Part shown: in pieces, positions 31,425 through 58,837 of the stretch
Layout of the letters: each line of letters begins with the position of its first letter
How positions within the stretch are numbered: position 1 is the first letter of the stretch
Assembly (NCBI RefSeq): GCF_900184965.1
Contig: NZ_FXYA01000214.1
Location: 124,001-188,000, forward strand
Direction: 5' to 3'
Origin: Akkermansia muciniphila
GTDB taxonomy: Bacteria > Verrucomicrobiota > Verrucomicrobiia > Verrucomicrobiales > Akkermansiaceae
Length of the DNA stretch: 64,000 nucleotides
Notes under the pieces: model-generated
What the model was told of the DNA's origin: nothing
The model's database searches: none
Seen by the model: only the letters and a program-made list of their open reading frames with translations
Translations under genes and position numbers: made by a program

Positions 31425-31455
31425 TCACTGTTAATGATATGCCTCTATTATGAAC

Positions 31456-31513
31456 ATGGTGCGTCTGGCAGGACTCGAACCTGTACGCCTTTCGGCACCA
31501 GATCCTAAGTCTG
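31456..31513. repeat. Left attachment repeat: displaced 3' portion of the tRNA-Leu gene
   Basis: These 58 bp match 45564-45621 with a single difference (T for C at 31464). They cover the 3' acceptor strand, T arm, variable arm and the 3' side of the anticodon arm of tRNA-Leu(UAG), then the match breaks off (AATCTG here, GCGCGT there). It is not a functional tRNA. This is the fragment left when an element integrated into the tRNA gene. Confidence 0.92.
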
Positions 31514-31652: not shown

Positions 31653-32980
31653 ATGCACCAGGGAAAGAGAAAATGGCTGGTGCGCGGCATGTCGGGAGAT
31701 CGTCATAATCACCGACTCTTTGATTCCTATGAAGAGGCATTGGAAGCATATCAACGACTTCAGCATCAATCATTGGACGATATGCTACTGGAGCACTTGC
31801 GAAAGCAGGAATGGTGGGAACATGTAGATGAACATGACTACAACGCCATTGTTTTATGGAGAGAATTCAGGAACATCTATGATGAAGTAACTCAGCAAAC
31901 TTCTCTCCCTTTATATCTGGTTGTCCGGGAAGCGTTGCAAACCCTGAAGCAGGAAATAGCCAGTGGAGCGATTTATGGTCGGAAAGATGCTAATGGCAAC
32001 TGGATGGTAACGCGTACGGACGAGGAAAATCTGGACAGGCTGGAGGAACTGACCAATTTGTTTTCTCTGACCAGATTTCTTGCCAATAAAACAGAACAGA
32101 TCAAAGTCGATTTCAAAAGAAAGTTTGGTGTTCTTGCAGAACAATGTCAGACAGTTATCGGCAAGAAGCTTGAATCAAACCTGATCAAGAAAGCCCATCA
32201 TGACAGCATGGTCATGGAACTGGAAAAATGGTCACAGGGATGGGAAGAGCTCCCGCTCAACCAGATAACGCCGGACATGATTGAAGAAAAGCTGGCTTCA
32301 TTCCGATATCGGAAACAATCACTCAGTAATGCTACCAAACGACGTTACCGTACAACCCTGCATGGATTCTTTGTCTGGGCCCAGAGCAGGGACCTCATTG
32401 CGTATAACCCGGTTGAAAGGACGCTTGCTCCGAGAGCGGAATCTGTCCAGATTGGCATCATTTCTCCACCTGAGCTAAAGAAACTCCTGCAAGCTGCACT
32501 TGATCACGACAGAGGAATGTTGTTCCGATTAGTCTTGGCTGCCTTTTGCGGTTTGCGCCGTTCCGAATGCGTCAGAATAACACCGGATGACATCCTTGAT
32601 GAAAAGGATGAAGTATTTGTCTCAGCCTCCATAGCCAAAACCGGGAAACAACGTTTTGTTCCACTCCCTGCCGCAGCCAAGGTCTGGCTTGCCTTGGCAG
32701 AGCATGAACCGTCTCCTGACGAAATTGACAGATTATACGAGAACCACCATGGACGTTGCCTCAAAAAACTGGCAGAAATTGCGGGCATCACGTTACCACG
32801 CAATGCCCTGCGCCATTCGTTCGCCTCATACGCAGCCGCCAAAACACACGATATCCCCTGGGATCCATGGGGCTCGGGCATTCGGGAACCAACATGACGG
32901 AAAAGCATTTCCGGGAAGGAGTCCGTGCTGCCGAAGGTGAAGCATGGTTAAGTGTTTTGCCGGAACAAAAGACGAGATAA
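31653..32980 (+). pseudogene. Inactivated tyrosine-recombinase integrase of the island
   Basis: A phage-type integrase. There is an N-terminal DNA-binding region (KRKWLVRGMSGDRHNHRLFDSYEEALEAY), a core-binding SAM-like domain, then catalytic FCGLRRSECVRI (Arg I), SIAKTGKQRFVPL (Lys region) and NALRHSFASYAAAKTHD (box II Arg). After 32860 the frame changes: the homologous continuation SMGLGHSGTNMTEKHFREGV is in another frame and ends at 32980. In addition, the residue where the Tyr nucleophile is expected (HY in KHYRE-type motifs) is Phe (codon TTC). Two independent lesions make it very unlikely to be active. The frame is open upstream to the attachment repeat without a good start, so the N-terminus may also be damaged. 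Confidence 0.82.
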
Positions 32981-32989
32981 ATTCGTGTT

Positions 32990-33891
32990 TTACCACCAAG
33001 ACTTGTCCCTGCAAGACCGGTAATATCGACCCCGGCAGCCTTCTCACGCAAAATCTTCGCGACAGCTTCCTTGGCGAAACCGAGTCCCCGGTATTCCGGG
33101 AGAATGCCGATGGAGTACGAGCCGATAAGTCTGCCTCCCTCCAACATTTGTTGCCATCCGACAAAGCCGGCGGCCTGCTTGGTCATCTTATCGCGAATAA
33201 GATAGACGCCGTCGTGTCCGGGAATACCGAGACCGTAGGGCCAGTAGCTGGGATCTTCGTTGTAGATGCGCTCCATAATGGCCTGCGCTTCCATGCGTCC
33301 TGAAAGATCATAAGCAGACTTTATGCCGGGCGATGGGAACGCGATATAATCGACTGTGTGCGCCTGTTTGGCCTGCATATCGAGGGCATCATTGATAGTT
33401 CCCTGCAGTTTGAGCGAAAGATCGTCGAGATTACCTGCAGGTGGGGCTCCGGATTTACTTGCTGCTGGAACTATACCTGGGGAAGGAGCAGGGTGTTCGT
33501 GACGGGACGCCGGACAAGCTGATTGGCTGGCCTGGGTGGGCCTTGATGTGGAGGAGCCGAAGCGTACTGGTCGAGATCGTCATCGCTGAAATCTTCATCC
33601 GGGTCGGCAGTATAGCCAGCTGGCGATGAGCCTGTGTTTGCGTAGGATGCTTGCGCTTCAGCCTTCGGAGCGCCCTCGGTGGCAGGAGGAACAACAGCAT
33701 TTGCAACAGATGAACCTAGCAGTACACCGCTGAGATCTCCAGCTCCCATTCCAAGGATACCGGTCAGTGCGGTAGCTGTGTCCCCTGCTCCGAGATGTTT
33801 TGCCAAGTGAGCGGCTCCTGCACCGCCGCCAAGAGCTCCTATAAAAGTGTCTCTTTTGGCGGGTGTACTCTACGATGCTGGCCTTGCTCAT
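32990..33891 (-). pseudogene. Broken gene with a Gly/Ala-rich N-terminus and a C-terminal GNAT-like domain
   Basis: Three consecutive minus-strand frames join into one protein. MSKASIVEYTRQK (start 33891) passes, after a slip in an AAAA run near 33852, into RDTFIGALGGGAGAAHLAKHLG and an acidic, Pro-rich linker (DPDEDFSDDDLDQYASAPP). After a second slip near 33500 it continues SKSGAPPAGNLDDLSLKLQGTI and a GNAT-like part with GVYLIRDKMTKQAAGFVGW and SIGILPEYRGLGFAKEAVAKIL. It ends abruptly at LAGTSLGGK against the integrase end. The glycine-rich start followed by a disordered linker suggests a phage or element protein, but I do not recognise the family. Confidence 0.55.
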
Positions 33892-34206
33892 CTTCGGGGG
33901 GCCTTGATTGGTTTACTTAGCTGGACTTTTTGCTCATGCCTTCCATCGTCCTCATATTTTGAGGCAACCAATAGGTTTTTCTCTTCCTTCGATTTTTCTC
34001 CAGCGTCCTGGCTCATGAGTCAACACGTTTGCGGGCTTATACGGACGAAAGCGTTTGACAATTGGTCCTTGCCTAAATATATAAATCGAGAAACATGCGA
34101 TATACGCCCAGCGCATGAGCCGTCTTTAGAAGTTCAAGAAAGAAGGGGATGACGAGTGGGTGAAGGCTGGTATCACAGCTGATTGTAATAAGAAGGATTC
34201 GGAAGC
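33892..34206. other. Low-complexity gap with a short coding-like tail fused to the SNF2 start
   Basis: No complete gene is visible. The last 26 codons before 34210 (from 34130, KFKKEGDDEWVKAGITADC and on) form an open tail whose TGA overlaps the SNF2 ATG as ATGA. Upstream of it the frame has a TAG at 34127. This looks like the 3' end of a lost gene that was once translationally coupled to the SNF2 gene. Confidence 0.35.
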
Positions 34207-37101
34207 ATGATTACAAATTACCATGCAAGTTACTACGCGCATGAATTGAGCCGGGTCGGCGGCACCGGTGTCGACCGTCTTGGTCGTGCGCTATTTGATG
34301 CATGTGTAGACCTGAATCCTCACCAGATTGAAGCAGCCCTTTTCGCATTACGCTCCCCCCTTTCAAAGGGTGTACTGTTAGCTGACGAGGTTGGCCTTGG
34401 CAAGACCATCGAGGCAGGTCTTGTGCTATGTCAATACTGGGCGGAACGCAGACGAAACATTCTGGTAATTAGCCCAGCCTCTCTCCGGAAGCAATGGGCG
34501 CAAGAGCTCTCCGAAAAGTTTAACCTGCCATCCATCATTCTGGATGCAAAAAACTATAAGGAGCAGCAAAAGCTTGGGAGGGCAAATCCGTTCAGGGACA
34601 AGCAAATCATTATTTGCTCTATGCATTTTGCCGCCAGCCGGGCAGAAGATCTCAAAGAGATTGTCTGGGATCTTGTGGTTATTGATGAAGCGCACAAGCT
34701 CCGTAATGCCTACCGGGAAAGCAACCGACTGGGCCAGCGTATCCGCTGGGCAATAGAAGAGCGCAAAAAGCTCCTTCTGACGGCAACTCCGTTGCAAAAC
34801 TCCCTTCTCGAACTCTATGGCCTTTCGACCCTGATCGATGACAGGTTGTTTGGTAACTTGGCATCTTTCCGAACGCAGTACATCAACTATGGCGGTGATA
34901 TCTCTAGCCTGAAGGAACGCTTAGGCGCATTCTGCTGGCGTTCACTTCGCAGCCAGGTCATCGAATTCGTGCGCTACACCGAACGCAAGCTCATTACCAG
35001 GCCGTTCAAGCCTACGGAGCAGGAGCACAAACTATATGAGGCAGTTTCCAGCTATCTCATGCGAGACGAAACCTATGCTCTCCCATTCGGACAGAAACAT
35101 CTCCTAATACTGCTTGTTCGAAAAGTTTTGGCCTCCTCGCCCCACGCCGTTGCCGGGACACTTGAGATCATGCGTGATCGCCTGCTGAAACTGATGGACG
35201 AAGCCAAGCAGAATGCAAGTGCTCTGGATCTGTTGATTTTCGGTGAAGAAATTGATGACGACCTTCTTGATGAAATTCTCGAAGACCAGGAGGATACATC
35301 TCTGGACGATGAAACCCCAATGCCAGAGAAAACACATGAGCCGCAGATCAAGAAGGTCAATCTGGAAAAGCTCAATGCCGAAATTAACGAGCTGACCGAC
35401 TATATCCGCTGGGCCAGAAGCCTCGGTATTGATACAAAAACCCGAGCACTCCTAAAGGCTTTAGATATCGGCTTCAGTGTCATGGATGAAATGGGCGCGG
35501 CCAAAAAGGTCGTCATCTTTACCGAATCCCGGCGAACCCAGAGCTGGCTGAAAGATTTCCTCGAAGGGAACGGCTATGCCGGTCAGGTTCTAACCTTCAA
35601 TGGCACCAACAAGGATGATGCTTCCGGCAAGATTTATCAGGAGTGGCTTGTTGCCAATAAAGAATCAGGTAGGGCAACCGGCTCTCGTCAGGTAGACCTC
35701 AGAGCTGCAATCATTGATCGTTTTCGTGACCAGGCAAGTGTGTTGATCGCGACAGAGGCCGGTGCTGAAGGCCTTAACCTTCAGTTCTGTTCCGCCATCG
35801 TTAACTTTGATCTGCCCTGGAATCCTCAACGTATCGAACAGCGGATTGGGCGATGCCACCGTTACGGACAGAAACACGACGTGGTCGTTATCAACTTCCT
35901 CAACGAGCGTAACGAGGCCGACAGGCGTGTCCATGAACTGCTGGAACAGAAATTTAATCTGTTTACCGGAGTATTTGGTGCCAGTGATGATGTTCTCGGC
36001 TCCATCGAAGCCGGTATGGATTTTGAACGCCGCATTCTGGAAATCTACCAAGGGTGTCGAAGTGAAGAAGAAATTCAGTCTGCGTTCGAGAAGCTGCAGA
36101 AGGAACTGGACGAACAGATCCAGACCAAGATGCGCGACACACGGAAAATGTTGCTGGAGCATTTCGACGAGGATGTACACGACCGCCTGAAAGTGAATCT
36201 AGATGGGACTCAAGAGCGTCTCGACCGTATTGGCCACTTGTTTTGGGCCGTCACACGGCACACATTGCAAAATCATGCTACGTTTGACGATCAGGACTTC
36301 TCCTTCACCCTGCAAAACAGCCCGGTCGCTCATGTTTCACATGGTCGTTATCACCTGATTTCCAAAACTCAGGAAAACGTGCCCGGCGAATACCTGTATC
36401 GCCTGAACCATCCACTAGGGGAATACGTCATTCATGAGGCTTCAAAGCGACCTTGTCCGCCCGCTGAAGTTGTTTTTGATATTTCCGGGCACTCTACCCG
36501 CATCGCGGTGGTGGAGCGCCTCAGGGATAGATCCGGCTGGCTGAGCCTCCAGCATATGCACATCGAGTCATTCGATTCCGAGGAATATCTGCTTTTTTCG
36601 GGAATGGACGATGCAGGCAACAATATTGACCAGGAAACCTGCGAAAAGCTGTTCAACTGCAGCGGTCAGGTTCGTAGCATTGCCGAGATTCCGAATTCTG
36701 CCAAAGAACGCCTCATGGGGGATCAGGTGCGCCATGCCAAGGCAACCCTGGCCAAAAACCTGGAGGAGAACAACCGTCACTTCTCCGAGGCCCGTGACCA
36801 ACTCGACAAATGGGCCGAAGACATGGAAATGGCGACGCAAAAAGAATTGGACGATACCAAACGTCAAATCCGCGACTTGCAACGGCGCAGTCGCCAAGCT
36901 CCCACCATCGAGGAGCAGCACAACCTGCAGGAAGAAATAGCCAAGCTTGAGCGTAAGAAACGCGCCTTACGCGAACGTATTTTTGAAATAGAGGACGAGA
37001 TTGCTGAAAAGAGGGACCGCCTCGTGGAATCTCTCGAAAAACGTATGCAACAAAAAACAACTGTCACGCCGGTGTTCACCATCCGGTGGAGCGTAATTTA
37101 A
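34207..37101 (+). CDS. SNF2-family ATPase/helicase (RapA/HepA-like) of the island operon
   Basis: 964 residues. Walker A is DEVGLGKT at 60-67, Walker B DEAH at 160-163, motif III LLLTATPLQN, and motifs V and VI GAEGLNLQF (from 519) and RIGRCHRYGQ (546-555), a complete two-RecA SNF2 motor. An acidic insertion (EEIDDDLLDEILEDQED) separates the lobes. Residues about 840-950 form a charged coiled coil. SNF2 motors translocate on double-stranded DNA; in defence systems such as class 1 DISARM an SNF2 protein accompanies a methylase. Here it is the first gene of a three-gene unit, 17 bp before the methyltransferase. No nuclease domain is visible in it. Confidence 0.87.
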   Translation: MITNYHASYYAHELSRVGGTGVDRLGRALFDACVDLNPHQIEAALFALRSPLSKGVLLADEVGLGKTIEAGLVLCQYWAERRRNILVISPASLRKQWAQELSEKFNLPSIILDAKNYKEQQKLGRANPFRDKQIIICSMHFAASRAEDLKEIVWDLVVIDEAHKLRNAYRESNRLGQRIRWAIEERKKLLLTATPLQNSLLELYGLSTLIDDRLFGNLASFRTQYINYGGDISSLKERLGAFCWRSLRSQVIEFVRYTERKLITRPFKPTEQEHKLYEAVSSYLMRDETYALPFGQKHLLILLVRKVLASSPHAVAGTLEIMRDRLLKLMDEAKQNASALDLLIFGEEIDDDLLDEILEDQEDTSLDDETPMPEKTHEPQIKKVNLEKLNAEINELTDYIRWARSLGIDTKTRALLKALDIGFSVMDEMGAAKKVVIFTESRRTQSWLKDFLEGNGYAGQVLTFNGTNKDDASGKIYQEWLVANKESGRATGSRQVDLRAAIIDRFRDQASVLIATEAGAEGLNLQFCSAIVNFDLPWNPQRIEQRIGRCHRYGQKHDVVVINFLNERNEADRRVHELLEQKFNLFTGVFGASDDVLGSIEAGMDFERRILEIYQGCRSEEEIQSAFEKLQKELDEQIQTKMRDTRKMLLEHFDEDVHDRLKVNLDGTQERLDRIGHLFWAVTRHTLQNHATFDDQDFSFTLQNSPVAHVSHGRYHLISKTQENVPGEYLYRLNHPLGEYVIHEASKRPCPPAEVVFDISGHSTRIAVVERLRDRSGWLSLQHMHIESFDSEEYLLFSGMDDAGNNIDQETCEKLFNCSGQVRSIAEIPNSAKERLMGDQVRHAKATLAKNLEENNRHFSEARDQLDKWAEDMEMATQKELDDTKRQIRDLQRRSRQAPTIEEQHNLQEEIAKLERKKRALRERIFEIEDEIAEKRDRLVESLEKRMQQKTTVTPVFTIRWSVI

Positions 37102-37118
37102 GGAACCAGGAGATAACC

Positions 37119-40100
37119 ATGCCATCTACCGAACAACTTCGCAGCCGCCTTTTGAAAAAGCTTTCCGAGCTGTTTCAGCTCGACCAGCCGGACCTCGATT
37201 TCGGCTTTTACCGCATCATGCATGCCAAGGCGCAGGAAGTTCAGGAATTCATCGCCACTGACCTGCTGAAAATCGTGGCAGATGCCTTCGGTGATGTGGA
37301 CGAGGCCCGCAAGGCCGAGCTACAGGCCGCCTATGAGAAGACCATTCAGACCGCCAAGGATTTTGGCGCTCCCAATCCGGAAGAGACCGAGCCAGTCAAA
37401 AAGGCCAAAGACGCTCTGGAAGCTGTCAAGGATATGGCCAGCGCCGAGGCCGATGTGTATGACCACCTGTATCGCTTCTTTGAGCGCTACTACGACGATG
37501 GCGACTTTATCTCCCGCCGCTATTACACCCGGGAGACATCCGGCAAGGCTGCTCCCTTTGCCGTGCCGTACAACGGTGAGGAAGTAAAACTGCACTGGGC
37601 CAATGCCGACCAGTATTACATCAAGAGCACCGAGTATTTTTCCAACTTCACCTTCGATTTGCGGCAGGCGCAAGAGATCCGCGCTCTGCGACAGCAAAAT
37701 CAGATCGGTATCATGCTCGGTGCCGAGGACGGTTCCCCGATTAAAGTCCACTTTCGCGTCGTTGAAGCCACCGAGGGCGAGCATGGCAACGTCAAGGCTT
37801 CCGAGGCCAACAAGCGTTTCTTCATTCTGCATGCCGAAAATCCCGTCGCCTTGACCGAAACCGGCGAGCTGGTCGTCAATTTTGAATACCGGCCCGACCC
37901 GGAAAAAACCGGACAAGAAAACACCTGGCGGGACAAGCGCAACGCCGAGGCGGTGAAGACCATACTGGAGCGTCTCCAAGCCATGGCTACTGCTGGTGGC
38001 GAACACGAAAAACAGGTCGCAGAATATTTGCGTCTGTGCAAAGTCCCCGCTCCGACCGACAGCAACAAGGAGCGCCCCGTGCTGGCCAAGTACGTGAACC
38101 AGTACACCGCCCGCAACACCATGGACTATTTTATCCATAAAGACTTGGGCGGCTTTCTGCGACGGGAGTTGGACTTCTACATTAAGAACGAGGTCATGCG
38201 CCTCGATGACATTGAAAACGCCGAAGCTCCGGCGGTCGAAAGCTATCTGGCCAAGATCAAGGTGCTGCGCAAAATCGCGGACAAACTGATCGACTTTCTG
38301 GGCCAGCTTGAGGGTTTTCAGAAAAAGCTCTGGCTCAAGAAGAAGTTCATTATTGAAACCAACTACTGCATCACCCTCGACCGGGTTCCCGAGGAACTCT
38401 TCGCGGAAGTGGCGGCCTGTGATGCGCAGTGTGAAGAGTGGATCAAGCTGTTTGCCATCGACGAGATCCAGGCCGATCTGCACAGCCCAGGGTTCTCACG
38501 GCCTTTGACGGTCGAGTTCCTCAAGGCCAACAACAAGCTGGTGCTGGATACCCGCTTTTTCAATGACAGCTTCAAGGCCCGTCTGGTGGCGTCCATTGAG
38601 AACTTCGATGAGCAGTGCGATGGCCTGCTGATAAATGGAGACAATTTTCAAGGAATGACTTTAATTCTCGAACGATACGCAAAGCAGATTCGCCTTACTT
38701 ACATCGACCCACCATATAACACGGGTGGTGACGATTTCATGTATAAAGATGCCTACCAACACTCTTCTTGGCTTTCGTTTATCCAGAGCAGAGTTTGCGC
38801 ATCAATACCCCTACTTGCCAAAACATATAACTATATATCAAGTATAGATGATGAAGAGGCAGCTAAACTGAGGCTTCTTTTTGAGGAAATTCTGTCACAT
38901 GATAATTTTGTTGCCGATGTTGCGTATGAACGATCAGGAAGTTCTGGACTGGGTCAAGGTGGGAAGATTGTTAATACAAAGGAGCATATCCTAGTTTACA
39001 GCTCAGACAAGTCTGCTATGAACGATGTACAATATGAGCGAGAAATAGAGTTTGAGACACTGAAACGCTATAACAAAATACTCAGCAATGCTGGCGATCG
39101 TGAGCTTGTGGAGTCTTTTGTGGCACCATCAACCGGGGAAGATGTCAAGATATATCGTCACGAGAACTTCCAGATAGATACAATATCACTTCGCAATTTC
39201 GTTGAGCGCAAGGACGAGATTAATCGAGAGTATATCTCTAATTTTAGGAATGTTTTTAGATTAACTAGTGTTCAGAAGGAAAACGAGTTTCAAAATAGAA
39301 TATTATCATTATGCAAAATTGGACTTTATTCAGCGGACTATCTTGTATCAAGAGGACGTTTTGCTGGGAAAAACATTACGCTCTACTATTTTAATGGTCA
39401 GATATTTGTTTGGCTACGTGATAGTGCAAAGCTTGATGGGAATACAATACTCAAAGAAAACAAAATTACTGACCATTGGTCACATGGAGAAATTCCAAAA
39501 GCAGACTTAGCAAACGAAGGTGGAGTAACTCTCTCAAGAGGGAAAAAACCTGAACAGCTGATGAAGCGCCTCATCGAGTGGTGTTCAAACGAACGAGATA
39601 TTATCTTGGATTACTTTGCAGGGTCAGGCTCTACTGCAGCTGTTGCAATGAAACTTAGAAGAAAATTCATTGCCATCGACGCAGAGAAATACTTCGACGA
39701 CAAAAGTATTCTTCGAATCAAAAATGTTTTTGGTGGAGATAAATCAGGGATTTCCAAGCAAACTGAATGGAAAGGTGGAGGGCTTTGTAAATACCTCCGT
39801 CTAGAATCCTACGAGGACACACTCAACAACCTGCGCTTCGACCATAATTCCCAGCGTAAAAAGGCGGTGGCGACCAATCCTGCGCTCAAGGAAGACTACA
39901 TGCTCCGTTACCTGCTGGATGTGGAGACACGGGGTAGTCAGTCGTTGCTCAATATAGACGCCTTTGCCGATCCTTGCCGCTACACCCTGGATGTCAAGAA
40001 GCCGGGAACGGACGAGTACGCCACCCGTGCGGTCGATCTGATCGAGACCTTCAACTATCTGATCGGCCTGCGTGTGCTGCACATCTCTGTGCCACAGACC

Positions 40101-40502
40101 TTCCAAGCGACCTTCAAGCGCATTACGGACCCGGAATTACCCGAAGACCAGAACACCAAGCTGGTGGTGGATGGCCGCATCCGTCTGGACGAAAACGGCC
40201 CATGGTGGTTCCGCAAGGTCGAGGGCTGGGTACCTAAGGACCCGACCAATCCCAACAATGGCCAGCAGGAAAAGGTTTTAGTTGTCTGGCGCAAGCTCAC
40301 CGACGACATCGAGCAGGACAACCTGATGCTGGATGAATGGTTCCAGAAGAATCGCATCAGCACCCGCGATTTCGAGTTCGACACCATCTACGTCAACGGC
40401 AGCAACAATTTGCCCAATCTGAAGCTGGATGACGAGAACTGGAAGGTCCGCCTCATCGAAGAAGAGTTTATGAAACGCATGTGGGATGGCGAGAACGCAT
40501 AA
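37119..40502 (+). CDS. Type III-like DNA methyltransferase (Mod-like) with long N-terminal extension
   Basis: 1127 residues. Motif IV is DPPY at 530-533 in LTYIDPPYNTGGDDF, and motif I is FAGSG at 833-837 in ILDYFAGSGSTAAVAMKL. The order IV before I marks a beta-class N6-adenine or N4-cytosine methylase as in type III Mod subunits. The region between is the expected target-recognition domain. The first roughly 500 residues are alpha-helical, charged and not found in classical Mod proteins (about 650 residues). The last 230 residues after motif I form a further domain. The ATG at 37119 has an AGGAG ribosome binding site. DNA from about 38640 to 39810 is strikingly AT-rich (27% GC in 39241-39300) against 60% in the 5' part, pointing to a mosaic gene. 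Confidence 0.87.
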   Translation: MPSTEQLRSRLLKKLSELFQLDQPDLDFGFYRIMHAKAQEVQEFIATDLLKIVADAFGDVDEARKAELQAAYEKTIQTAKDFGAPNPEETEPVKKAKDALEAVKDMASAEADVYDHLYRFFERYYDDGDFISRRYYTRETSGKAAPFAVPYNGEEVKLHWANADQYYIKSTEYFSNFTFDLRQAQEIRALRQQNQIGIMLGAEDGSPIKVHFRVVEATEGEHGNVKASEANKRFFILHAENPVALTETGELVVNFEYRPDPEKTGQENTWRDKRNAEAVKTILERLQAMATAGGEHEKQVAEYLRLCKVPAPTDSNKERPVLAKYVNQYTARNTMDYFIHKDLGGFLRRELDFYIKNEVMRLDDIENAEAPAVESYLAKIKVLRKIADKLIDFLGQLEGFQKKLWLKKKFIIETNYCITLDRVPEELFAEVAACDAQCEEWIKLFAIDEIQADLHSPGFSRPLTVEFLKANNKLVLDTRFFNDSFKARLVASIENFDEQCDGLLINGDNFQGMTLILERYAKQIRLTYIDPPYNTGGDDFMYKDAYQHSSWLSFIQSRVCASIPLLAKTYNYISSIDDEEAAKLRLLFEEILSHDNFVADVAYERSGSSGLGQGGKIVNTKEHILVYSSDKSAMNDVQYEREIEFETLKRYNKILSNAGDRELVESFVAPSTGEDVKIYRHENFQIDTISLRNFVERKDEINREYISNFRNVFRLTSVQKENEFQNRILSLCKIGLYSADYLVSRGRFAGKNITLYYFNGQIFVWLRDSAKLDGNTILKENKITDHWSHGEIPKADLANEGGVTLSRGKKPEQLMKRLIEWCSNERDIILDYFAGSGSTAAVAMKLRRKFIAIDAEKYFDDKSILRIKNVFGGDKSGISKQTEWKGGGLCKYLRLESYEDTLNNLRFDHNSQRKKAVATNPALKEDYMLRYLLDVETRGSQSLLNIDAFADPCRYTLDVKKPGTDEYATRAVDLIETFNYLIGLRVLHISVPQTFQATFKRITDPELPEDQNTKLVVDGRIRLDENGPWWFRKVEGWVPKDPTNPNNGQQEKVLVVWRKLTDDIEQDNLMLDEWFQKNRISTRDFEFDTIYVNGSNNLPNLKLDDENWKVRLIEEEFMKRMWDGENA

Positions 40503-40514
40503 GAAGGCGATGTG

Positions 40515-43500
40515 ATGGCAAAGAAACGTTTACGCGGCCCCAAACCGCATAATTTTCGCAATAAGCTGCTGCTCAATCAGTGGCTGGTGAGCCTATTCGG
40601 CATCGATCCACTCACCGAACACAAAGTAAATGGAAAGGTGGTTCGTCCCTTTCACAAGCTGGCTGAACCCATCCGCGATCCGCGCCTGGAAGGGTTGGAC
40701 AAGGATAATCTGCATTTTTTCTACCACCATCTCGGCGATAGCCCGCTCTTCAGCTATGCCGATCCAACGGCTAATTTCCCGGACTTTCGCATCAGTCGGG
40801 ACATGCTCTTGACCTATGAGCAGAACATCGTCCGCCATACCCAAGCAATCAACGAAAAACGCCACCGCCCGATTGGGTGGAAATACTACCAATGGCTGAC
40901 ACTGATCTTTGTTGAAATCTACTTGGACCGCTTTTTTGGCAATCGTGAAGGGATGCTTGCCGATCTCAATGCATTCGTTGAACGTTTCAACCGCCACTGG
41001 GACGATTATGCCGATGTGCCGCTTTACAACGAGAATGACCTGAACAAGCTCTGCATGCAGAACGCCACCGGCAGCGGCAAGACGCTGCTGATGCACGTCA
41101 ACCTGCTGCAATACCGACACTATGCCACAAAGTATGGAAAGGATAAAGAACTCTCACGAGTTATCCTGCTGACGCCCAACGAGCGTCTCTCGGAGCAACA
41201 CATCACCGAGTTTCGCGAGAGCGATATTTCTGCAGGCAGCTACCTGCAATCCCGTGGCGGCCTGTTCGGCCTGGTCCAGGGCCTTGAGCGTGTAGATGTG
41301 CTGGAAATCACAAAACTGGCCGATCAGGAAGGCCCGAACACCATCGCCACGCGAAGCCTGGGCGATCAGAACCTGCTTCTGGTTGACGAGGGTCATCGCG
41401 GCATGAGCGGCAAAGAGGAAGGCGTTTGGTTCACACGACGTTCAGACCTTTGCGCCAAGGGGTTTACCTTCGAGTATTCGGCCACCTTCGAGCAGGCCGT
41501 TCAGGCATCAGGCAAGGCCGATTTTGAGAACAGCTACGCCAAGACGGTCGTTTTTGATTACTCCTACCGATGGTTCTATGAGGACGGTTTCGGCAAGGAT
41601 TACCAGATACTGAATCTGCCAGGGTCATTCGAAGAGACGCAGTCGATCTATATGACAGCCTGTCTTCTGAAGTTCTATCAGCAGCTCCGGATCTACGGGG
41701 AAAAGGCGAAGGATTTCGAGCCGTTCAATCTGGAAAAGCCGCTGTGGGTCTTTGTCGGTAGCACGGTTTCATCTGGCAAGATGAGCAAAGATGAACAGAT
41801 CGTAGCCACGGACGTAGCGCTCATCATCCAGTTTATAGCCGACTTCCTCGAGAATCGGAAGGAGGCTACGCGGCGCATACACGAGCTTCTCACCGGCAAA
41901 GGCCGGGATACCGGGCTGCTGGACAAGGATGGGAACGACATATTTGCCGGGGCCTTTACCTATCTGGCCCGGGCCATGAATGGTGGTGAAACCGTTGAAA
42001 CCATTTACCGAGATATTCTCGCAAGGCTGTTCAATCATGCCGCAGGCGGGCATTTGTCACTGGATCGAATCAAAGGCGAATCCGGCGAAGTGGCCTTGCG
42101 TGTGGGTACAAGCGACACGCCCTTCGGTCTGATCAACGTCGGTGATGCCAAGAGCCTGTGCGACCACGTGGCCGAAGTGGCGGCGCAAAACGGCACACGA
42201 CTTACCGTAGAAGATAGTAACTTCACGGAGGCAATGTTCGCTTCCGTGAAGAATTCCACGTCACCGGTCAATCTGCTTATCGGCTCGAAGAAATTCGTTG
42301 AAGGCTGGGACTGCTGGCGCGTCAGCACAATGGGCCTAATGCATGTCGGGCGCTCGGAAGGTTCGCAGATTATTCAGCTCTTTGGACGTGGTGTTCGCTT
42401 GAAGGGTTACGAGTGGAGCCTTAAACGTAGCGGCCATTCCCATGCTCCGCACCGGCCACCCTTCATCGAGGAATTGGAAACCCTCAACGTGTTCGGCATC
42501 GAAGCCGACTTCATGGAGAAGTTCCGCGAGTTCCTTAAAGAAGAAGGCCTACCCGGCAACGAGCGCCGTAAGATCATTACCATCCCGCTGAATGTCACCT
42601 ATGACTTCGGCAAGAAGCTTAAAATCCTCCGCCCTAAGCGGAAGGCCTCTGACGGCAAGGAATACGACTTCAAAAAAGATGCAGCGGTGCTCTCTGTCGG
42701 GGATATCCCGGACTACATGACGCACAACACGGTAGTTGCGGACTGGTATCCGCGCATTCAGACTATGCAGTCACGCGGTACATCTCAGACAACCCAAAAG
42801 GATAGAGTGTCGTTGCGTGAACAACATTTGGCTCTACTGGACTATGACACACTCTTTTTCGAACTGGAGCGCTTCAAACGCGAACGGAGCTGGTACAACT
42901 TCAACATCACCAAGGAGGGTATTCAACATTTACTGGTCACCCCGAACTGGTACACCCTCTACCTGCCCGAAACCCGCTTGAACCCGACAACCTTTGATGG
43001 CGTGCTCTTGCTGCAGCAGGTGGCGTTAGAGCTTTTAAAACGCTACTGCGATCACTACTACAACTATTGCAAACGTGAATACATTGAGCCACGTCTGGAG
43101 CTACGCGACCTAACGCCGGATGATGACAACATCCCGCAGGAGGAATTCTACCAGCTCATCGTGGATGGTGATGAAGAACAGGTCATTCAGGGGATTCAGC
43201 AGATCAAAAAGGATCTGGAGCAGAAGAAGGATGATCTGCTGAAGGTTGGTGATCTGAACGCCTGCAATTTCGGCAAGCACCTGTTTCAGCCGCTTTTTCA
43301 CGTCCGGCGCGGTGGAAAAATCACCATCCTGCCTGTCGTCCTCAACGAGAGCGAATATCAATTTATCACCGATCTCAAAACATGGTGTGACGACAACAAA
43401 GCTGCTTTGGGAAAGGAGGGAGGGGAGATCTTTTTGCTCAGGAACATGAGCCGGGGCAAGGGTGTGGGATTCTTTGAAGCGGGAGGCTTCCATCCAGACT

Positions 43501-43805
43501 TCATTCTGTGGATGCTTATTGGCGAAAAACAGTACATCACTTTCATCGAACCGCACGGTCTTTTGCACGAAGGCCCCGCCAGCGAAAAGATTCTGTTTCA
43601 CAAGCGGATCAAGGATGTTGAGCAACGGTTGAAGGACCCGACCGTGATCCTCAACAGTTTCATCCTCTCTTGGACGCAATATCCGCAACTGAAATGGGAC
43701 AGCACGCAGGACGAGCTCGAGGATATGCACGTGTTGTTCATGACCAATGATCGGGAAAGATATATCGACAAGTTATTTGCTCGGCTGAGGGGGATGGTAA
43801 AATGA
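40515..43805 (+). CDS. Type III Res-like DEAD/DEAH helicase with C-terminal nuclease-like domain
   Basis: 1096 residues. Walker A is GSGKT at 186-190, Walker B is DEGH at 291-294 (a variant of DEAH), motif III is FEYSATF, and motif VI lies in IIQLFGRGVRLKG, as in type III Res proteins. Near the C-terminus HPDFILW (Asp995) and ITFIEPHGL (Glu1012, His1014) match the spacing of a PD-(D/E)xK nuclease, but His stands where Lys is usual. It starts 12 bp after the methyltransferase stop; the ATG at 40515 is preferred to a GTG at 40512. Together the two would modify and cleave DNA; the SNF2 gene is an additional component. Confidence 0.85.
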   Translation: MAKKRLRGPKPHNFRNKLLLNQWLVSLFGIDPLTEHKVNGKVVRPFHKLAEPIRDPRLEGLDKDNLHFFYHHLGDSPLFSYADPTANFPDFRISRDMLLTYEQNIVRHTQAINEKRHRPIGWKYYQWLTLIFVEIYLDRFFGNREGMLADLNAFVERFNRHWDDYADVPLYNENDLNKLCMQNATGSGKTLLMHVNLLQYRHYATKYGKDKELSRVILLTPNERLSEQHITEFRESDISAGSYLQSRGGLFGLVQGLERVDVLEITKLADQEGPNTIATRSLGDQNLLLVDEGHRGMSGKEEGVWFTRRSDLCAKGFTFEYSATFEQAVQASGKADFENSYAKTVVFDYSYRWFYEDGFGKDYQILNLPGSFEETQSIYMTACLLKFYQQLRIYGEKAKDFEPFNLEKPLWVFVGSTVSSGKMSKDEQIVATDVALIIQFIADFLENRKEATRRIHELLTGKGRDTGLLDKDGNDIFAGAFTYLARAMNGGETVETIYRDILARLFNHAAGGHLSLDRIKGESGEVALRVGTSDTPFGLINVGDAKSLCDHVAEVAAQNGTRLTVEDSNFTEAMFASVKNSTSPVNLLIGSKKFVEGWDCWRVSTMGLMHVGRSEGSQIIQLFGRGVRLKGYEWSLKRSGHSHAPHRPPFIEELETLNVFGIEADFMEKFREFLKEEGLPGNERRKIITIPLNVTYDFGKKLKILRPKRKASDGKEYDFKKDAAVLSVGDIPDYMTHNTVVADWYPRIQTMQSRGTSQTTQKDRVSLREQHLALLDYDTLFFELERFKRERSWYNFNITKEGIQHLLVTPNWYTLYLPETRLNPTTFDGVLLLQQVALELLKRYCDHYYNYCKREYIEPRLELRDLTPDDDNIPQEEFYQLIVDGDEEQVIQGIQQIKKDLEQKKDDLLKVGDLNACNFGKHLFQPLFHVRRGGKITILPVVLNESEYQFITDLKTWCDDNKAALGKEGGEIFLLRNMSRGKGVGFFEAGGFHPDFILWMLIGEKQYITFIEPHGLLHEGPASEKILFHKRIKDVEQRLKDPTVILNSFILSWTQYPQLKWDSTQDELEDMHVLFMTNDRERYIDKLFARLRGMVK

Positions 43806-43845: not shown

Positions 43846-44137
43846 TTGATGTCCAAGTTCCCGATGATAGCAAAAGCATTGAACTCCAGAAAAAATATCG
43901 AACCTTGGCTGGCGGCTGTTTTTCAGTGTGAGCACCTTACTCTCTTACTTGGTAGCGGTTTCACAAAAGCGGTTGCATATCAGTTCGGAACAAACGCAGA
44001 TGACATAGCTTGTAACTATGGAGGTTTCCCACTGAATGAAAAGCTGGAGGATGCCCGCTCAGTAGGCCACTGCGACCATGGGGTGTGTCGAGGCAAATAT
44101 TAAGGATCAGATCCGGACCGCCAACTCGTTGGCTTAA
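43846..44137 (+). pseudogene. Remnant of a SIR2-like gene downstream of the R-M operon
   Basis: The frame from 43846 reads IAKALNSRKNIEPWLAAVF and then CEHLTLLLGSGFTKAVAYQFG, which resembles the N-terminal nucleotide-binding loop of SIR2-type defence proteins. It then stops; the next homologous-looking piece, CVEANIKDQIRTANSLA, is in another frame, followed by a stop at 44135. A further piece, NITPADLADIIFYGIEDLF, occurs near 44240-44300. It probably belonged to the same defence operon and has decayed. Confidence 0.42.
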
Positions 44138-44570: not shown

Positions 44571-44790
44571 TTACCTCCAGAACCACCAGGAATACTCCCT
44601 CCTGTACTGGCACCACGAGCCATTACATCCCAGGTTGGGATGGAAACGTTCGGTGGTAATGCCTTCGTAGGCGATCTTGTACAGGTCGGCGACGTGCTGC
44701 TGGCGCTGTTCGTTGGCTGGTACGACTGGAGACAGATAATCCAAGTGGATAGCAGAGAAAGGCGAAGACTCCGGGGAGAGAGGTAGATCT
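44571..44790 (-). pseudogene. C-terminal fragment of a possible PD-(D/E)xK-type nuclease
   Basis: The minus-strand frame reads VVPANEQRQQHVADLYKIAY and then GITTERFHPNLGCNGSWCQY before it stops at 44571. A helix followed by F-x-P-N and a C-x-x-x-x-C pair resembles the end of RecB/Cas4-like nucleases with a C-terminal cysteine pair. No N-terminal part is present, so it is only a fragment. Confidence 0.3.
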
Positions 44791-44799
44791 ATTCCATCG

Positions 44800-45066
44800 T
44801 ATAGCCCCTTTAATGCTGCTGGAGTCATTTCCTTCTCCATTAAAGTCGGATGCACTAAGTTCCTGGAAATACCCTTCGATAGCGCGTGCTTCATGAGCAG
44901 ACCGTGATTGGCAAACGATGTAGTCGTCCTCCTTCCTGTCCACATTATGGTCCTGAAACAGGCGTTTTTCTGCATTGTTGGTTACTCCGATATAAACCCT
45001 GTTTCAGGTGATACCTTTATCTTCGAAGAAGGCGGTAATGCTTCGAATGATCTGTTGTCTTTCCAT
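44800..45066 (-). pseudogene. Broken GIY-YIG-like gene with an internal stop
   Basis: From an ATG at 45066 on the minus strand the frame reads MERQQIIRSITAFFEDKGIT, a TGA stop, then NRVYIGVTNNAEKRLFQDHN and YIVCQSRSAHEARAIEGYF. The VYIGVTNxxEKRLF segment and the following helix fit small GIY-YIG-type proteins, in which the stop position would be Trp (TGG to TGA). It is read as a nonsense pseudogene. Confidence 0.45.
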
Positions 45067-45563: not shown

Positions 45564-45621
45564 ATGGTGCGCCTGGCAGGACTCGAACCTGTACGCCTTT
45601 CGGCACCAGATCCTAAGTCTG
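45564..45621. repeat. Right attachment repeat within the intact tRNA-Leu
   Basis: The direct repeat partner of 31456-31513 (57 of 58 identical). It is the 3' part of the functional tRNA gene, supplied or kept by the inserted element so that the tRNA stayed intact. Confidence 0.92.
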
Positions 45622-45649
45622 GCGCGTCTACCAATTTCGCCACAGGCGC
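45565..45649 (-). tRNA. tRNA-Leu (anticodon UAG)
   Basis: An 85-nt minus-strand gene. The acceptor stem is GCGCCTG / CAGGCGC, with discriminator A and an encoded CCA. The anticodon stem CCAGA/TCTGG holds the loop CTTAGGA (anticodon TAG), there is a long variable arm (TGCCGAAAGGCGT), and the T loop is GTTCGAGTC. It is the integration target of the island. Confidence 0.95.
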
Positions 45650-45990
45650 GACGAACGGACGGACGCACTCTGCCATACCGGGCTCTGGCGTTCAAGATTA
45701 AACAGGAGTTTTTGCCTTTGACGCGCTTGCTGTAAGCGCCTGTGGTGAGAACCCATGGGGAAGTCGGCTGCCCTGTTGGGCGTCTTCTTTCTGGCGGCTG
45801 GAGAAAGGCAGGCTTTGTCTTAGGCTGGTGTTGCCCGTTGGTCATGGTTCCGGAGCGCATATTTCCCTTATGAGAAGTGCGAGGCTAATGCCAAAAAACG
45901 GCGCGTGAAATTAAGATGAAGGTTGTTGGGCCGGCTAAAAACAGTCCTGAACGGGAGGATGGAATATCCCGCATGTTTTCGCGGGCAGGC
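45650..45990. other. Intergenic region upstream of tRNA-Leu, no gene seen
   Basis: 341 bp between the tRNA 5' end and the end of a membrane protein gene on the same strand. No frame with protein-like composition was found. The tRNA promoter must lie in the part next to 45650, but no convincing -35/-10 pair was identified by eye. Confidence 0.4.
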
Positions 45991-46371
45991 TCACCCCATG
46001 ATTTGCTCCGGAAAGGGGAATAGTTTCACGAACAGGAAGTCCAGCATCCCCAGGCACAGGGCGATGCAGACGGCTTTTTTAGGGGGCAGGAGAGGCGTTG
46101 TTTTCAGCCACGCGACGATGCCGGCGTGAACCGCCAGGGAGATGCCCACAGACCACCAGAAGAACGGAATGCCCGTCATGGCGAAGAGGGCCGCCAGCGG
46201 GTAGGTGAACGCCAGAAAGAGTTTCATGACAGCTTCCCATTCATGCCCGCGCACCATCATCAGCTGCTTGGACAGAAGGGAGACATACAGGCAGGAAGGG
46301 ACCACGACGCACAGGATGAGGGAAACAAGCCCTTTTTTTGCATACCGTTCTTCCTGTGTGGGAATGTACAT
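45991..46371 (-). CDS. Hypothetical membrane protein
   Basis: 126 residues with four hydrophobic segments (LVSLILCVVVPSCLYVSLL, LFLAFTYPLAALFAMTGI, FFWWSVGISLAVHAGIVAW, AVCIALCLGMLDFLFVKLF) and a short polar N-terminus YIPTQEERYAKKG. No family is recognised. It diverges from uvrB, with 86 bp between the starts. The regular membrane-protein pattern supports a real gene. Confidence 0.65.
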   Translation of the reverse strand: MYIPTQEERYAKKGLVSLILCVVVPSCLYVSLLSKQLMMVRGHEWEAVMKLFLAFTYPLAALFAMTGIPFFWWSVGISLAVHAGIVAWLKTTPLLPPKKAVCIALCLGMLDFLFVKLFPFPEQIMG

Positions 46372-46457
46372 GCCGCATATACTGGGTCAGGAGGGGGAAA
46401 TTGTCAAACATTGTCCTAGCCCGGCGGGACGGGGGCATTATACTGACGGCATCGCGT

Positions 46458-48599
46458 ATGTCGTCTTTTGAGTTGAATTCTTCCTTCAAGCCTTCCGGGG
46501 ATCAGGAGCAGGCCATCGGCAAGCTGCTCAAGTCTCTGGAGGCGGGAAACAAGCACCAGGGGCTCCTGGGAGTGACCGGAAGCGGCAAAACATTCACCAT
46601 GGCGAATTTGATTGCCCGGATGAACAGACCCACGCTGGTGATTTCCCATAACAAGACGCTTGCCGCGCAGCTTCATTCGGAGCTGAAGAGCTTCTTTCCG
46701 AATAACGCGGTGGATTACTACGTTTCCTATTTCGATTATTACCAGCCAGAGGCGTATATCGCCAGCTCCGACACCTATATTGAGAAGGATTCCGCCATTA
46801 ATGACGAGTTGGACCGCCTGAGCCTGAATGCCATGAATTCCCTGATGACGCGGCGGGACGTGATTGTGGTGGCGTCCGTTTCCTGCATTTACGGCCTGTC
46901 CACTCCGGAGGATTACAGGAACCTGACGCTGCGCATGCGCGAGGGGGACGTCATGGACCGGGACGTATTTCTGAAGCAGCTGGTGGAACGCCTGTTTGAG
47001 CGGCAGGATTTTGATTTTACCCGCGGCACGTTCCGCGTGCGCGGGGAGGTGGTGGAGGTGTTTCCCGCCTATTCGGAAGGTGAGGCAATCCGCGTGGAGT
47101 TTTTCGGCGACGAGGTGGAGCGGGTTTCTTTGATTGACTCCGCCACCGGGCGCGTGAGGGAGCGGCTGGGGAGTTACACGTTTTTCCCGGCCAAACAGTA
47201 TGTGGCCGCTCCGGAGAAACGGGCGGCGGCGTTGAAGGCTATCCGGGAGGAGCTGGAGGACCGCATAGGCTGGTTTGAGAAGCATGGGCGCCTTCTGGAA
47301 GCGCAGCGGCTGAAATTGCGCACGGATTATGATTTGGAGCTGATAGAAGAGCTGGGTTTTTGCAAGGGGATTGAGAATTATTCCCGCCATTTGTCCGGCC
47401 GCCTGCCCGGAAGCGCGCCGTCCACCCTGCTGGATTTCTTTCCCAAGGATTCATTGACCCTGATTGATGAAAGCCATGTGGCGGTGCCGCAGCTGGGCGG
47501 CATGTACGAGGGGGACCGGAGCCGCAAAAATATTCTGGTGGAGCATGGTTTCCGTCTGCCCAGCGCCCTGGATAACAGGCCTTTGAAATTCCATGAGTTT
47601 ATGGAAAGGCAGAACCAGATAGTGTATGCTTCCGCTACGCCGGGGCCGTTTGAACTGGTGAATTGCCGTGCGGATAATAAGACGTATATTCCCGTGCGCC
47701 GTGCCGCCAGATCCGGAGAGAAGGCTCCGGAAGGGTTCAAAGGAATCCTGTTTACCTCCCCCAAAGACATTCGCGTCACTCCCAGCCCATCCACGGAACC
47801 GGTGGAAAAATTTGACCCTACCAGGCGTTCCACTCCTCTAATTGTAGAGCAGATTATCCGGCCTACCGGACTGCTGGAGCCGAAGATTACCATCCGCCCG
47901 TTGAAAGGGCAGATTGACGAGACGATTGCCATGTGCAATGAACGCGTCGCCAAAAATGAACGCGTGCTGGTTACGACGCTGACCAAGAAGACGGCGGAAG
48001 ATTTGACGGAGTACCTGAGAGGGGTAGGGTTGAAGGTGTCCTATATTCACGCGGATGTGGATGCGATTGAGCGCGTGGAAATTTTGCGTGCTTTGAGAGC
48101 CAGGAAGATAGATGTTCTGGTAGGCATTAACCTGCTCAGGGAAGGGCTGGATTTGCCGGAAGTTTCCCTGGTGTGCATTCTGGATGCGGACAAGGAGGGG
48201 TTTTTGCGCAATGAGACGTCCCTGGTGCAGACGGCGGGCCGCGCCGCGCGGCATTTGAATGGGGAGTGCGTCTTGTTTGCGGATGTGATGACGGATTCCA
48301 TCAAACGGCTGGTTGAGCTGACGGATTACCGCCGGGGCATTCAGGAGAGATACAACCGGGAACACGGCATTGTTCCCCAGACGGTGAGCCGTTCCGAACA
48401 GGGGCAGTTGAAGTTGTATGCAGAGGATGATGAAGAGTCCTTCCGCGTGGCGGAGGATGAAGCCGGGTATGGGCTGGAAGAACGCATCGCCAGGCTGGAG
48501 GCGGAAATGAAGGAGGCTGCTTCCCATTTGGAATTTGAACGCGCCGCCTTGATTCGGGATGAAATCAGAAGAATGCGCGGAGACGGCAAAAAAGCATGA
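46458..48599 (+). CDS. uvrB: Excinuclease ABC subunit B
   Basis: 713 residues. The Walker A is GVTGSGKT, the beta-hairpin region is YYVSYFDYYQPEAYI, VASVSCIYGLSTPEDY follows, and the helicase-like C-terminal lobe has LLREGLDLPEVSLVCILDADKEGFLR and QTAGRAARHLNGE. The last 35 residues are the UVR motif (ERIARLEAEMKEAASHLEFE) that contacts UvrC. It carries damage verification in nucleotide excision repair. The ATG at 46458 fits the family; 40 upstream in-frame codons do not. The segment around residues 440-480 (PSPSTEPVEKFDPTRRSTPL) is a species-specific insertion. Confidence 0.97.
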   Translation: MSSFELNSSFKPSGDQEQAIGKLLKSLEAGNKHQGLLGVTGSGKTFTMANLIARMNRPTLVISHNKTLAAQLHSELKSFFPNNAVDYYVSYFDYYQPEAYIASSDTYIEKDSAINDELDRLSLNAMNSLMTRRDVIVVASVSCIYGLSTPEDYRNLTLRMREGDVMDRDVFLKQLVERLFERQDFDFTRGTFRVRGEVVEVFPAYSEGEAIRVEFFGDEVERVSLIDSATGRVRERLGSYTFFPAKQYVAAPEKRAAALKAIREELEDRIGWFEKHGRLLEAQRLKLRTDYDLELIEELGFCKGIENYSRHLSGRLPGSAPSTLLDFFPKDSLTLIDESHVAVPQLGGMYEGDRSRKNILVEHGFRLPSALDNRPLKFHEFMERQNQIVYASATPGPFELVNCRADNKTYIPVRRAARSGEKAPEGFKGILFTSPKDIRVTPSPSTEPVEKFDPTRRSTPLIVEQIIRPTGLLEPKITIRPLKGQIDETIAMCNERVAKNERVLVTTLTKKTAEDLTEYLRGVGLKVSYIHADVDAIERVEILRALRARKIDVLVGINLLREGLDLPEVSLVCILDADKEGFLRNETSLVQTAGRAARHLNGECVLFADVMTDSIKRLVELTDYRRGIQERYNREHGIVPQTVSRSEQGQLKLYAEDDEESFRVAEDEAGYGLEERIARLEAEMKEAASHLEFERAALIRDEIRRMRGDGKKA

Positions 48600-58836: not shown

Positions 58837-58837
58837 C

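Follow-up and report, generated by a model that had tools for sequence, protein, structure and literature searches.

A probable Type III restriction-modification system of the Eco86II kind, with a predicted RapA-like ATPase, on a tRNA-Leu island of Akkermansia muciniphila

Introduction

The Type III restriction-modification (R-M) enzymes EcoP1I and EcoP15I are encoded by two genes, mod and res. What, then, is the place of an SNF2-family ATPase gene standing immediately in front of an extended mod gene and a large res gene in Akkermansia muciniphila? The locus lies in a stretch of 64,000 nucleotides, hereafter the window (assembly GCF_900184965.1, contig NZ_FXYA01000214.1, positions 124,001 to 188,000, position 1 being its first letter). 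Three intact co-directional genes on its + strand encode the SNF2 ATPase, the extended methyltransferase subunit (Mod), and the large restriction subunit (Res). They are separated by 17 bp (SNF2-Mod) and 12 bp (Mod-Res), as an initial annotation made from the sequence had given and the coordinates of the open reading frames (ORFs) bear out, and ribosome-binding sites can be read by eye in front of them. That annotation had taken the three genes for one R-M unit, housed in an integrated island and different from class 1 DISARM, and had proposed that they may form a distinct R-M variant. The three-gene observation is confirmed, far beyond chance, and the unit, its conservation, its island, and its separation from DISARM all hold. 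The idea of an undescribed variant does not, the operon being homologous to Eco86II, of the kind reported by Murray et al. in 2021 (PMC8259958). The locus is very probably a complete three-gene Type III R-M system of the Eco86II/BspHIV kind, carried by a tRNA-Leu island (Table 1).

Relation to Eco86II and to other Type III systems

In the Type III systems Eco86II and BspHIV, an additional gene has been described 5' of mod, encoding a helicase-like ATPase devoid of a nuclease motif; more than 500 genomes have such trios in close proximity, and the role of the ATPase was left unclear (PMC8259958). In both systems Mod alone sufficed for DNA methylation, which in Eco86II affects GAGCC, and partly purified Eco86II cuts ~25 bp from this site (PMC8259958). 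The genome of E. coli NCTC86 (NZ_LT601384.1) yielded one such locus, L183, encoding an SNF2-related protein, a methyltransferase, and a DEAD/DEAH helicase of 963, 1040, and 1126 residues; it is taken to be the Eco86II locus on the grounds of strain, gene order, and description. Identity to the window proteins, over almost the full length of each, is 54, 31, and 33%. The gene order ATPase-mod-res on one strand, the sizes, and the catalytic motifs are all as in the window, whose ATPase likewise lacks a nuclease motif, is non-homologous to Res, and is encoded directly 5' of mod. The two loci differ in the nuclease centre of Res, which reads D-P-K in Eco86II and E-P-H in the window. BspHIV, from Acinetobacter sp. 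H, is of the same three-gene kind by description. Given the full-length homology and the same gene order as Eco86II, the operon is, to judge from sequence, a newly found member of a kind on record since 2021 and not a new system, an assignment to which the literature led and not a profile search.

The two-gene enzymes EcoP1I and EcoP15I share with the window a Mod of DPPY-TRD-FxGxG layout, where TRD denotes the target-recognition region, and a Res made of a superfamily 2 (SF2) motor with a C-terminal nuclease, but the Mod and Res of the window are longer and the SNF2 gene is additional. A Cronobacter element has been listed with an SNF2 helicase, Mod, and Res, which the accessible part of that report does not present as a unit (PMC12757443). 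A search of later literature for the function of the third gene, with most subscription journals and bioRxiv outside its reach, found no answer.

Conservation of the three genes as a unit

Scanning genome contigs with the SNF2 protein, an approach that favours close relatives, returned 159 relatives, the best 80 of which were kept. Mod comes after SNF2 in 77 of these 80 loci, the remaining three having at most 55 bases of contig left. Res is present in 54; among the 26 loci without it, 22 have fewer than 800 bases of contig past the last match, while L033, L037, and L038 have 1.1-1.7 kb beyond it and L032 has 9.4 kb. A search that starts from Res finds a match in 17 genomes, the window's own included, out of 387 from the same phylum; this search supersedes an earlier one with PDLC03654, in which 9 of 194 own-phylum genomes had a match. 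Where Res is near-complete (matched over ~80% or more), SNF2 is found within 16 kb in 11 of 13 cases, and in genome G132 it is located on another contig, which ends in a Mod piece; the remaining case, G072, lacks it. Fragments of Res are accompanied by SNF2 in one case out of four. The SNF2 gene is therefore conserved beside mod and res, as the initial annotation had supposed.

Co-evolution was analysed at the 50 loci, out of 99 examined, in which all three proteins are full-length (94 of the 99 had at least one full-length protein). Mantel correlations between distance matrices amount to 0.81 for SNF2-Mod, 0.86 for SNF2-Res, and 0.93 for Mod-Res, with none of 999 permutations as high. The alignments indicate that SNF2, Mod, and Res co-evolve as a conserved unit. 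SNF2 is the slowest-evolving of the trio, its mean identity being 60.6%, that of the Mod body 53.7%, and that of Res 50.4%. The TRD does not track the three proteins (r 0.03-0.09; 252, 42, and 60 of 999 permutations as high).

The gene order is kept at the plasmid loci L088, L089, L090, L179, and L181, with or without extra genes, and is mod-res-SNF2 at L180. A natural deletion is seen at L122 (8473-13298), where a mod match lacking both ends runs straight into the end of res and SNF2 is full-length. A small helix-turn-helix (HTH) gene overlaps the SNF2 start at L184:13808-14008, L088:4709-4954, and L179:2799-3002. The L184 copy is named MAD1 (mads1) by NCBI, a name that may mislead, no other MADS gene being annotated in the 30 kb displayed.

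Mod and its recognition region

The Mod reading frame opens at GTG 37086, and ATG 37119, which is preceded by a ribosome-binding site, was chosen as the start. Pfam reports N6_N4_Mtase (PF01555, 1.7e-31), and the best PADLOC match is MTase_III PDLC03646 (4e-166, 552 bits). Motif alignments, the window included, comprise 89 SNF2, 67 Mod, and 59 Res sequences. DPP is present in 67/67 Mod sequences, followed by Y in 65 and F in 2, and GSG in 67/67. The layout DPPY, TRD, FxGxG is that of a Type III Mod, in which recognition resides within Mod and no separate S subunit is involved; the ORF list for the island holds no further large gene that could be a candidate for one. The protecting mark of Eco86II is N4-methylcytosine (m4C), and Type III Mods producing m4C or N6-methyladenine (m6A) are both of the beta class with a DPPY/F motif (PMC8259958).

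Mod and Res had also struck the initial annotation as unusually large. This holds against most PADLOC models, as most of the Type III Mod models matched have 465-816 positions (one has 983) and most of the matched Res models 871-989, but not against PADLOC as a whole, whose best-fitting models for the window comprise 1057 positions for Mod and 1154 for Res. Mod and Res of L088, a homologous operon on an E. coli plasmid, reach 1174 and 1651 bits with these two models, so that large subunits of this sort are already classed as Type III by PADLOC.

The TRD is a hypervariable stretch of Mod between motifs IV and I. Its columns have a mean pairwise identity of 20% at the 50 loci vs 54% for the Mod body. 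In the nearest relative, L009, the Mod body is 85% identical to that of the window and the TRD 14%; at most 17% identity is reached between the window TRD and those of the other 49 loci, the Eco86II TRD having been compared only within the whole Mod. The G+C content of the TRD region is 0.389 vs 0.538 and 0.542 in its Mod flanks. Taken together, the divergence of the TRD, its lack of co-variation with the other parts, and the G+C dip point to a mosaic mod gene in which the recognition cassette has been exchanged, recently enough that the base composition of the TRD still stands out.

Res and its nuclease centre

Res starts at GTG 40512 or ATG 40515, its 1096 residues being counted to 43805. 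Pfam reports ResIII and DEAD, and the best PADLOC match is REase_III PDLC03654 (3e-170, 567 bits). The Walker A, DEGH, and GRG motifs are conserved, and the PD of the nuclease is invariant (59/59). Its centre reads D-P-K in 45/59 sequences and E-P-H in 14/59, mixtures being absent (0/59); the window has E-P-H, and so does the Priestia plasmid copy L090. Res therefore has the SF2 motor and C-terminal PD-(D/E)XK nuclease of a Type III subunit, the nuclease being recognized by motif only. Hand-picked rows, 47 for SNF2 and 37 for Res, entered the input alignments of the structure work. The Res motor superposes on 4zcf_C, a chain of an EcoP15I entry (Z 11.5, root-mean-square deviation (rmsd) 5.8, 374 residues), a score that ties with those of many SF2 motors, and the VIA-align rows for the Res model cover the motor only. 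Comparing the Res profile with solved chains returned nothing at E 0.01.

The SNF2 ATPase

The ATPase comprises the Pfam domains SNF2-rel_dom and Helicase_C, and the Pfam scan reports no nuclease domain. Its GLGKT and DEAH motifs are invariant in all 89 aligned sequences, and its Pfam overlap with Res is limited to general SF2 helicase families. RapA, an SNF2 ATPase that recycles RNA polymerase, is its best solved relative by profile (E 1e-48) and occupies Foldseek ranks 1-4 for the SNF2 model. VIA-align reports many SNF2 motors with Z scores of 17-19, RapA being the sole match of more than 500 residues among the 50 rows listed: the model superposes on 8spg with Z 18.2, rmsd 9.5, and 695 residues, its residues 1-964 covering RapA 122-966, and on 8so8 with Z 17.7, rmsd 9.4, and 706 residues aligned. 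The modelled ATPase is predicted to be a RapA-like motor minus the N-terminal part of RapA, the two sharing the same end-to-end architecture from RapA residue 122 onward. In RapA, the N-terminal part binds RNA polymerase. This part, absent from the window protein, holds a tandem Tudor pair according to the accessible portion of the source (PMC12839542), and the two proteins also differ in that the window SNF2 is located in an R-M operon.

The top profile matches of SNF2 are PADLOC DrmD (679 bits) and NCBIfam DrmD_b (680 bits), against 192 bits for the HmaA model. As class 1 DISARM similarly places a DrmD_b-like SNF2 protein next to a DNA methylase, the locus could be an incomplete or rearranged class 1 DISARM. 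This is very improbable: the score falls short of the DrmD_b cut-off (NF038318, 680 vs 950 bits; NF038317, 292 vs 610), a Type III Res is present, and Mod and Res both fit Type III models best. The sizes of the drmA-C genes served as the basis for checking the island, in which every ORF of at least 200 residues is the integrase, part of the operon, or antisense to the latter. No drmA, drmB, or drmC match was found among the PADLOC rows listed for Mod, Res, and four small island ORFs, genes outside the island having been scanned in part. The SNF2 relatives of the phylum, 25 of 30 of which lie beside Type III genes, argue in the same direction. Class 1 DISARM was rejected as the DrmD cut-off is not reached and drmA/B/C were not found in the island, which agrees with the initial annotation. 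No DrmD_b above its cut-off was found in the 387 own-phylum, 4 further, and 239 other-phylum genomes, scoring in the sets of 387 and 239 being confined to the two or three top candidates of each genome, which may miss second copies.

Hma (HmaABC, Payne et al. 2021), three genes for a helicase, a methylase, and an ATPase according to the part of the report available (PMC8565338), shares an HmaA-related SNF2 part with the window. The Res protein, whole and in three parts, matches REase_III models and not HmaC. HmaB lies outside the best 25 of 48 families for the whole Mod and the best 25 of 49 for its middle part, and the N- and C-terminal parts of Mod have no matches other than Type III models at E values up to 10. 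Hma was largely rejected on these profile results.

The wider SNF2 family and cargo genes

The 387 own-phylum genomes encode 30 SNF2 proteins of this family in 27 genomes (NF038318 593-720 bits, none above 950), a count drawn from the two top candidates of each genome, which may miss second copies. Besides the 25 adjoining Type III genes, three are at contig ends and two elsewhere. The neighbours are extended Mod/Res in 14 cases (two by a Mod piece only; in G215 mod and res are truncated), compact Mod/Res of the PDLC03648 kind in 9 (two by Mod only), and the PDLC03647 kind in 2; the SNF2 family adjoins at least three sequence-divergent Mod/Res families. Conversely, SNF2 lies within 16 kb of 7/20 PDLC03648 and 2/53 PDLC03647 Res, compared with the 11/13 of the extended kind, contig ends included, and it is found elsewhere in the genome in 5 more PDLC03648 and 4 more PDLC03647 cases. 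In a tree of 51 rows, hand-picked from a larger set and built by a quick method, a branch with a Shimodaira-Hasegawa-like approximate likelihood ratio test (SH-aLRT) value of 100 splits 34 extended-type from 11 compact-type rows, and a long DUF2357-associated row is placed on the extended side.

Extra genes are frequent inside these operons: 36 of the 54 SNF2-Mod-Res loci have more than 250 bases between the SNF2-Mod or Mod-Res matches, and the window operon is among the 18 without such gaps. Scanning 20 gap ORFs with Pfam identified Fic, DUF4062/RecG-like, RhuM, YhcG nuclease, AAA_21, HTH with M78 peptidase, 23S_rRNA_IVP, and PDDEXK_3, and furthermore DUF3800, HNH, DUF4143 AAA, UvrD_C-type helicase, sigma-70, PemK, and Abi_2; 4 of the 20 had no Pfam match and one had a weak winged HTH (wHTH) match only. 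R-M operons with toxin-like genes inside are known, e.g. DarTG2 in a Type I operon, as far as the available parts of the sources go (PMC3710099, PMC12255303).

In E. coli 55989, a compact Type III-like operon (L185:10905-21668), adjoining tRNA-Phe and an integrase gene, has AAA ATPase and S8 peptidase genes between SNF2 and mod. Two SNF2 relatives stand beside other genes, with no Type III gene in the examined stretch: a DUF5131 gene at L175:4225-9237, and a weak DUF2357 match with large genes of no assigned function at L178:5181-15123. These are possibly other systems employing the SNF2 motor.

Proposed mechanism and role of the ATPase

The cutting mechanism is most likely that of the Type III family. 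The TRD of Mod would read a short asymmetric site, and the beta-class core of Mod would add a methyl group to an exocyclic amine of one strand, giving m6A or m4C. Where DNA is unmethylated, Mod-bound Res would use ATP and enter a sliding state, and two complexes coming from inversely oriented sites would meet and cut through the C-terminal nuclease of Res. SNF2 would be a double-strand DNA motor acting beside Mod-Res in the cell, where it would strip proteins off invading DNA or free stalled Mod-Res, letting the sliding complexes meet. This cellular role of SNF2, whether clearing obstacles for Mod-Res or recycling it, is a tentative proposal to which we give somewhat less than an even chance; it draws on the RapA-like fold, the absence of the ATPase from the cutting Eco86II preparation, and the tight linkage of the genes.

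Several observations weigh against a trio acting in this manner. In Eco86II, the ATPase gene was unnecessary for methylation and no ATPase peptides were present in the cutting preparation (PMC8259958), so that in vitro the enzyme does not strictly need the ATPase as a subunit. Confidence in the SNF2 model is moderate (mean predicted local distance difference test (pLDDT) 73, predicted template modelling score (pTM) 0.48), its superposition on RapA is loose (rmsd 9.0-9.5), and the RapA Z scores are tied with those of other SNF2 motors, the top one being 19.0. The window Res has E-P-H where D-P-K is commoner, and its nuclease could be altered. Among the loci, L032 comprises only SNF2 and a Mod remnant despite 9.4 kb of contig, G072 is a Mod-Res pair without SNF2, and two of the 30 own-phylum SNF2 proteins have other neighbours, a DUF5131 gene or a weak DUF2357 match, and no Type III gene within the examined stretch.

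RapA and Mot1, both among the fold matches of SNF2, take off or recycle other proteins on DNA. SNF2 might in the same way be a safety device that dismantles Mod-Res on, or takes it off, host DNA that has newly become unmethylated (restriction alleviation). This view is favoured by the dispensability of SNF2 for methylation and its non-detection in the cutting preparation of Eco86II (PMC8259958), as well as its being the slowest-evolving of the three proteins. Many compact Type III systems, however, seem to manage without SNF2, 51/53 PDLC03647 Res having none within 16 kb on the contig, and we regard alleviation as unlikely. SNF2 could also be a second effector of the DISARM/DrmD type, in part independent, that recognizes the same methyl mark and deals with DNA left uncut by Mod-Res. 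Its best profile matches are DrmD, its family is found next to at least three divergent Mod/Res families, and DISARM likewise has SNF2 helicase and adenine methylase genes, according to the accessible part of the source (PMC8102008). Yet SNF2 contains no Pfam nuclease domain, the DrmD cut-off is not reached and the island holds no gene of drmA/B/C size, and SNF2 is nearly always accompanied by a Type III Mod (25/30, with 3 at contig ends and 2 elsewhere), which makes a second effector an improbable reading too, on a par with alleviation.

On a broader reading, SNF2 would be a general restriction partner, that is, a RapA-related motor common to divergent extended and compact Type III Mod/Res, which would extend their reach on protein-covered phage DNA, while cargo slots flanking mod would hold back-up toxins (Fic, RhuM, PemK, Abi, and AAA types) for cases of restriction failure. 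This broader idea is on the doubtful side; if true, these operons would be two-layer defence machines and not plain Type III enzymes. For the question of the third gene's function, left open in 2021, the window supplies a copy that is clean and free of cargo, its recognition domain apparently exchanged. The RapA-like architecture predicted for SNF2, its near-obligate linkage to extended Mod/Res and rarer linkage to compact ones, the toxin-like cargo, and the coupled D-P-K/E-P-H variation provide testable handles. Beyond the work of Murray et al., the analysis adds this predicted architecture, the likely TRD exchange, the in-operon cargo, the SNF2 genes beside compact Mod/Res, and the coupled nuclease centre.

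The island and its surroundings

The operon is carried by a 14-kb island inserted in tRNA-Leu and bounded by direct repeats of 58 bp. An empty, uninterrupted site is present in G024, a genome classed in the same species, where the matches to window positions 31500 and 45990 are only 381 bases apart; the corresponding stretch (L128) aligns with 30927-31513 and with 45564-46535, and the 58 bases shared by the two matches represent the attachment repeats. The G+C content is 0.50 inside the island vs 0.57 in the rest of the window. The integration assumed by the initial annotation is borne out by the repeats and the empty site.

Table 1. Operon and island features in window coordinates
Feature	Position	Strand	Evidence
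Left attachment repeat, copies part of tRNA-Leu, 58 bp	31456..31513	.	Empty-site match; 57/58 identical
Tyrosine recombinase/integrase, 414 residues, 3' end probably broken	31653..32897	+	Phage_integrase PF00589, E 6e-8
SNF2 ATPase, predicted RapA-like, 964 residues, third gene of the probable Type III operon	34207..37101	+	ATG start; DrmD/DrmD_b profiles, motifs, RapA alignment
Extended Mod, predicted beta-class N6/N4 amino-methyltransferase, 1127 residues	37119..40502	+	PF01555, MTase_III, DPP and GSG motifs
Target-recognition region (TRD) of Mod, low G+C, hypervariable	38799..39758	+	G+C dip; column identities
Res, SF2 motor and C-terminal PD-(D/E)XK-type nuclease, 1096 residues	40515..43805	+	REase_III profile; fold match of the motor
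Nuclease centre of Res, PD-x(n)-E-P-H-G	43494..43559	+	Motif alignment
Right attachment repeat	45564..45621	.	At tRNA-Leu 45565-45649 (-)

The island contains, besides the operon, gene remnants and an integrase gene that is apparently broken: its Pfam match covers profile positions 5-138 of 172 only, and, in our own reading of the sequence, the C-terminal box is out of frame. The island may be immobile as a result of this apparent break near the 3' end. The integrase, the flanking remnants, and the His of the Res nuclease, where 45/59 homologues have Lys, could be taken to mean that the island is decaying and the system inactive in this strain. The three genes are nevertheless intact, with their motifs and ribosome-binding sites, E-P-H appears to be a stable variant because it occurs in 14/59 sequences including the Priestia plasmid copy, and the TRD exchange suggests selection; inactivity is quite unlikely.

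Pfam returned no match in the small ORFs 33471-33806 (-), 33847-34152 (+), 44571-44975, and 44623-44943 (-), nor did PADLOC in these four, in 32788-33378, or in the integrase. Downstream of the operon, 43930-44020 and 44571-44975 (-) are short remnants, maybe of decayed genes; by eye, no search having been made, the former resembles the start of a SIR2-type protein. Outside the island, at 55672-61711 (-), are two large adjoining genes, the first of which weakly matches GajB/UvrD-type helicase models (97 bits), and the pair resembles a chromosomal exonuclease and helicase more than it does a defence system.

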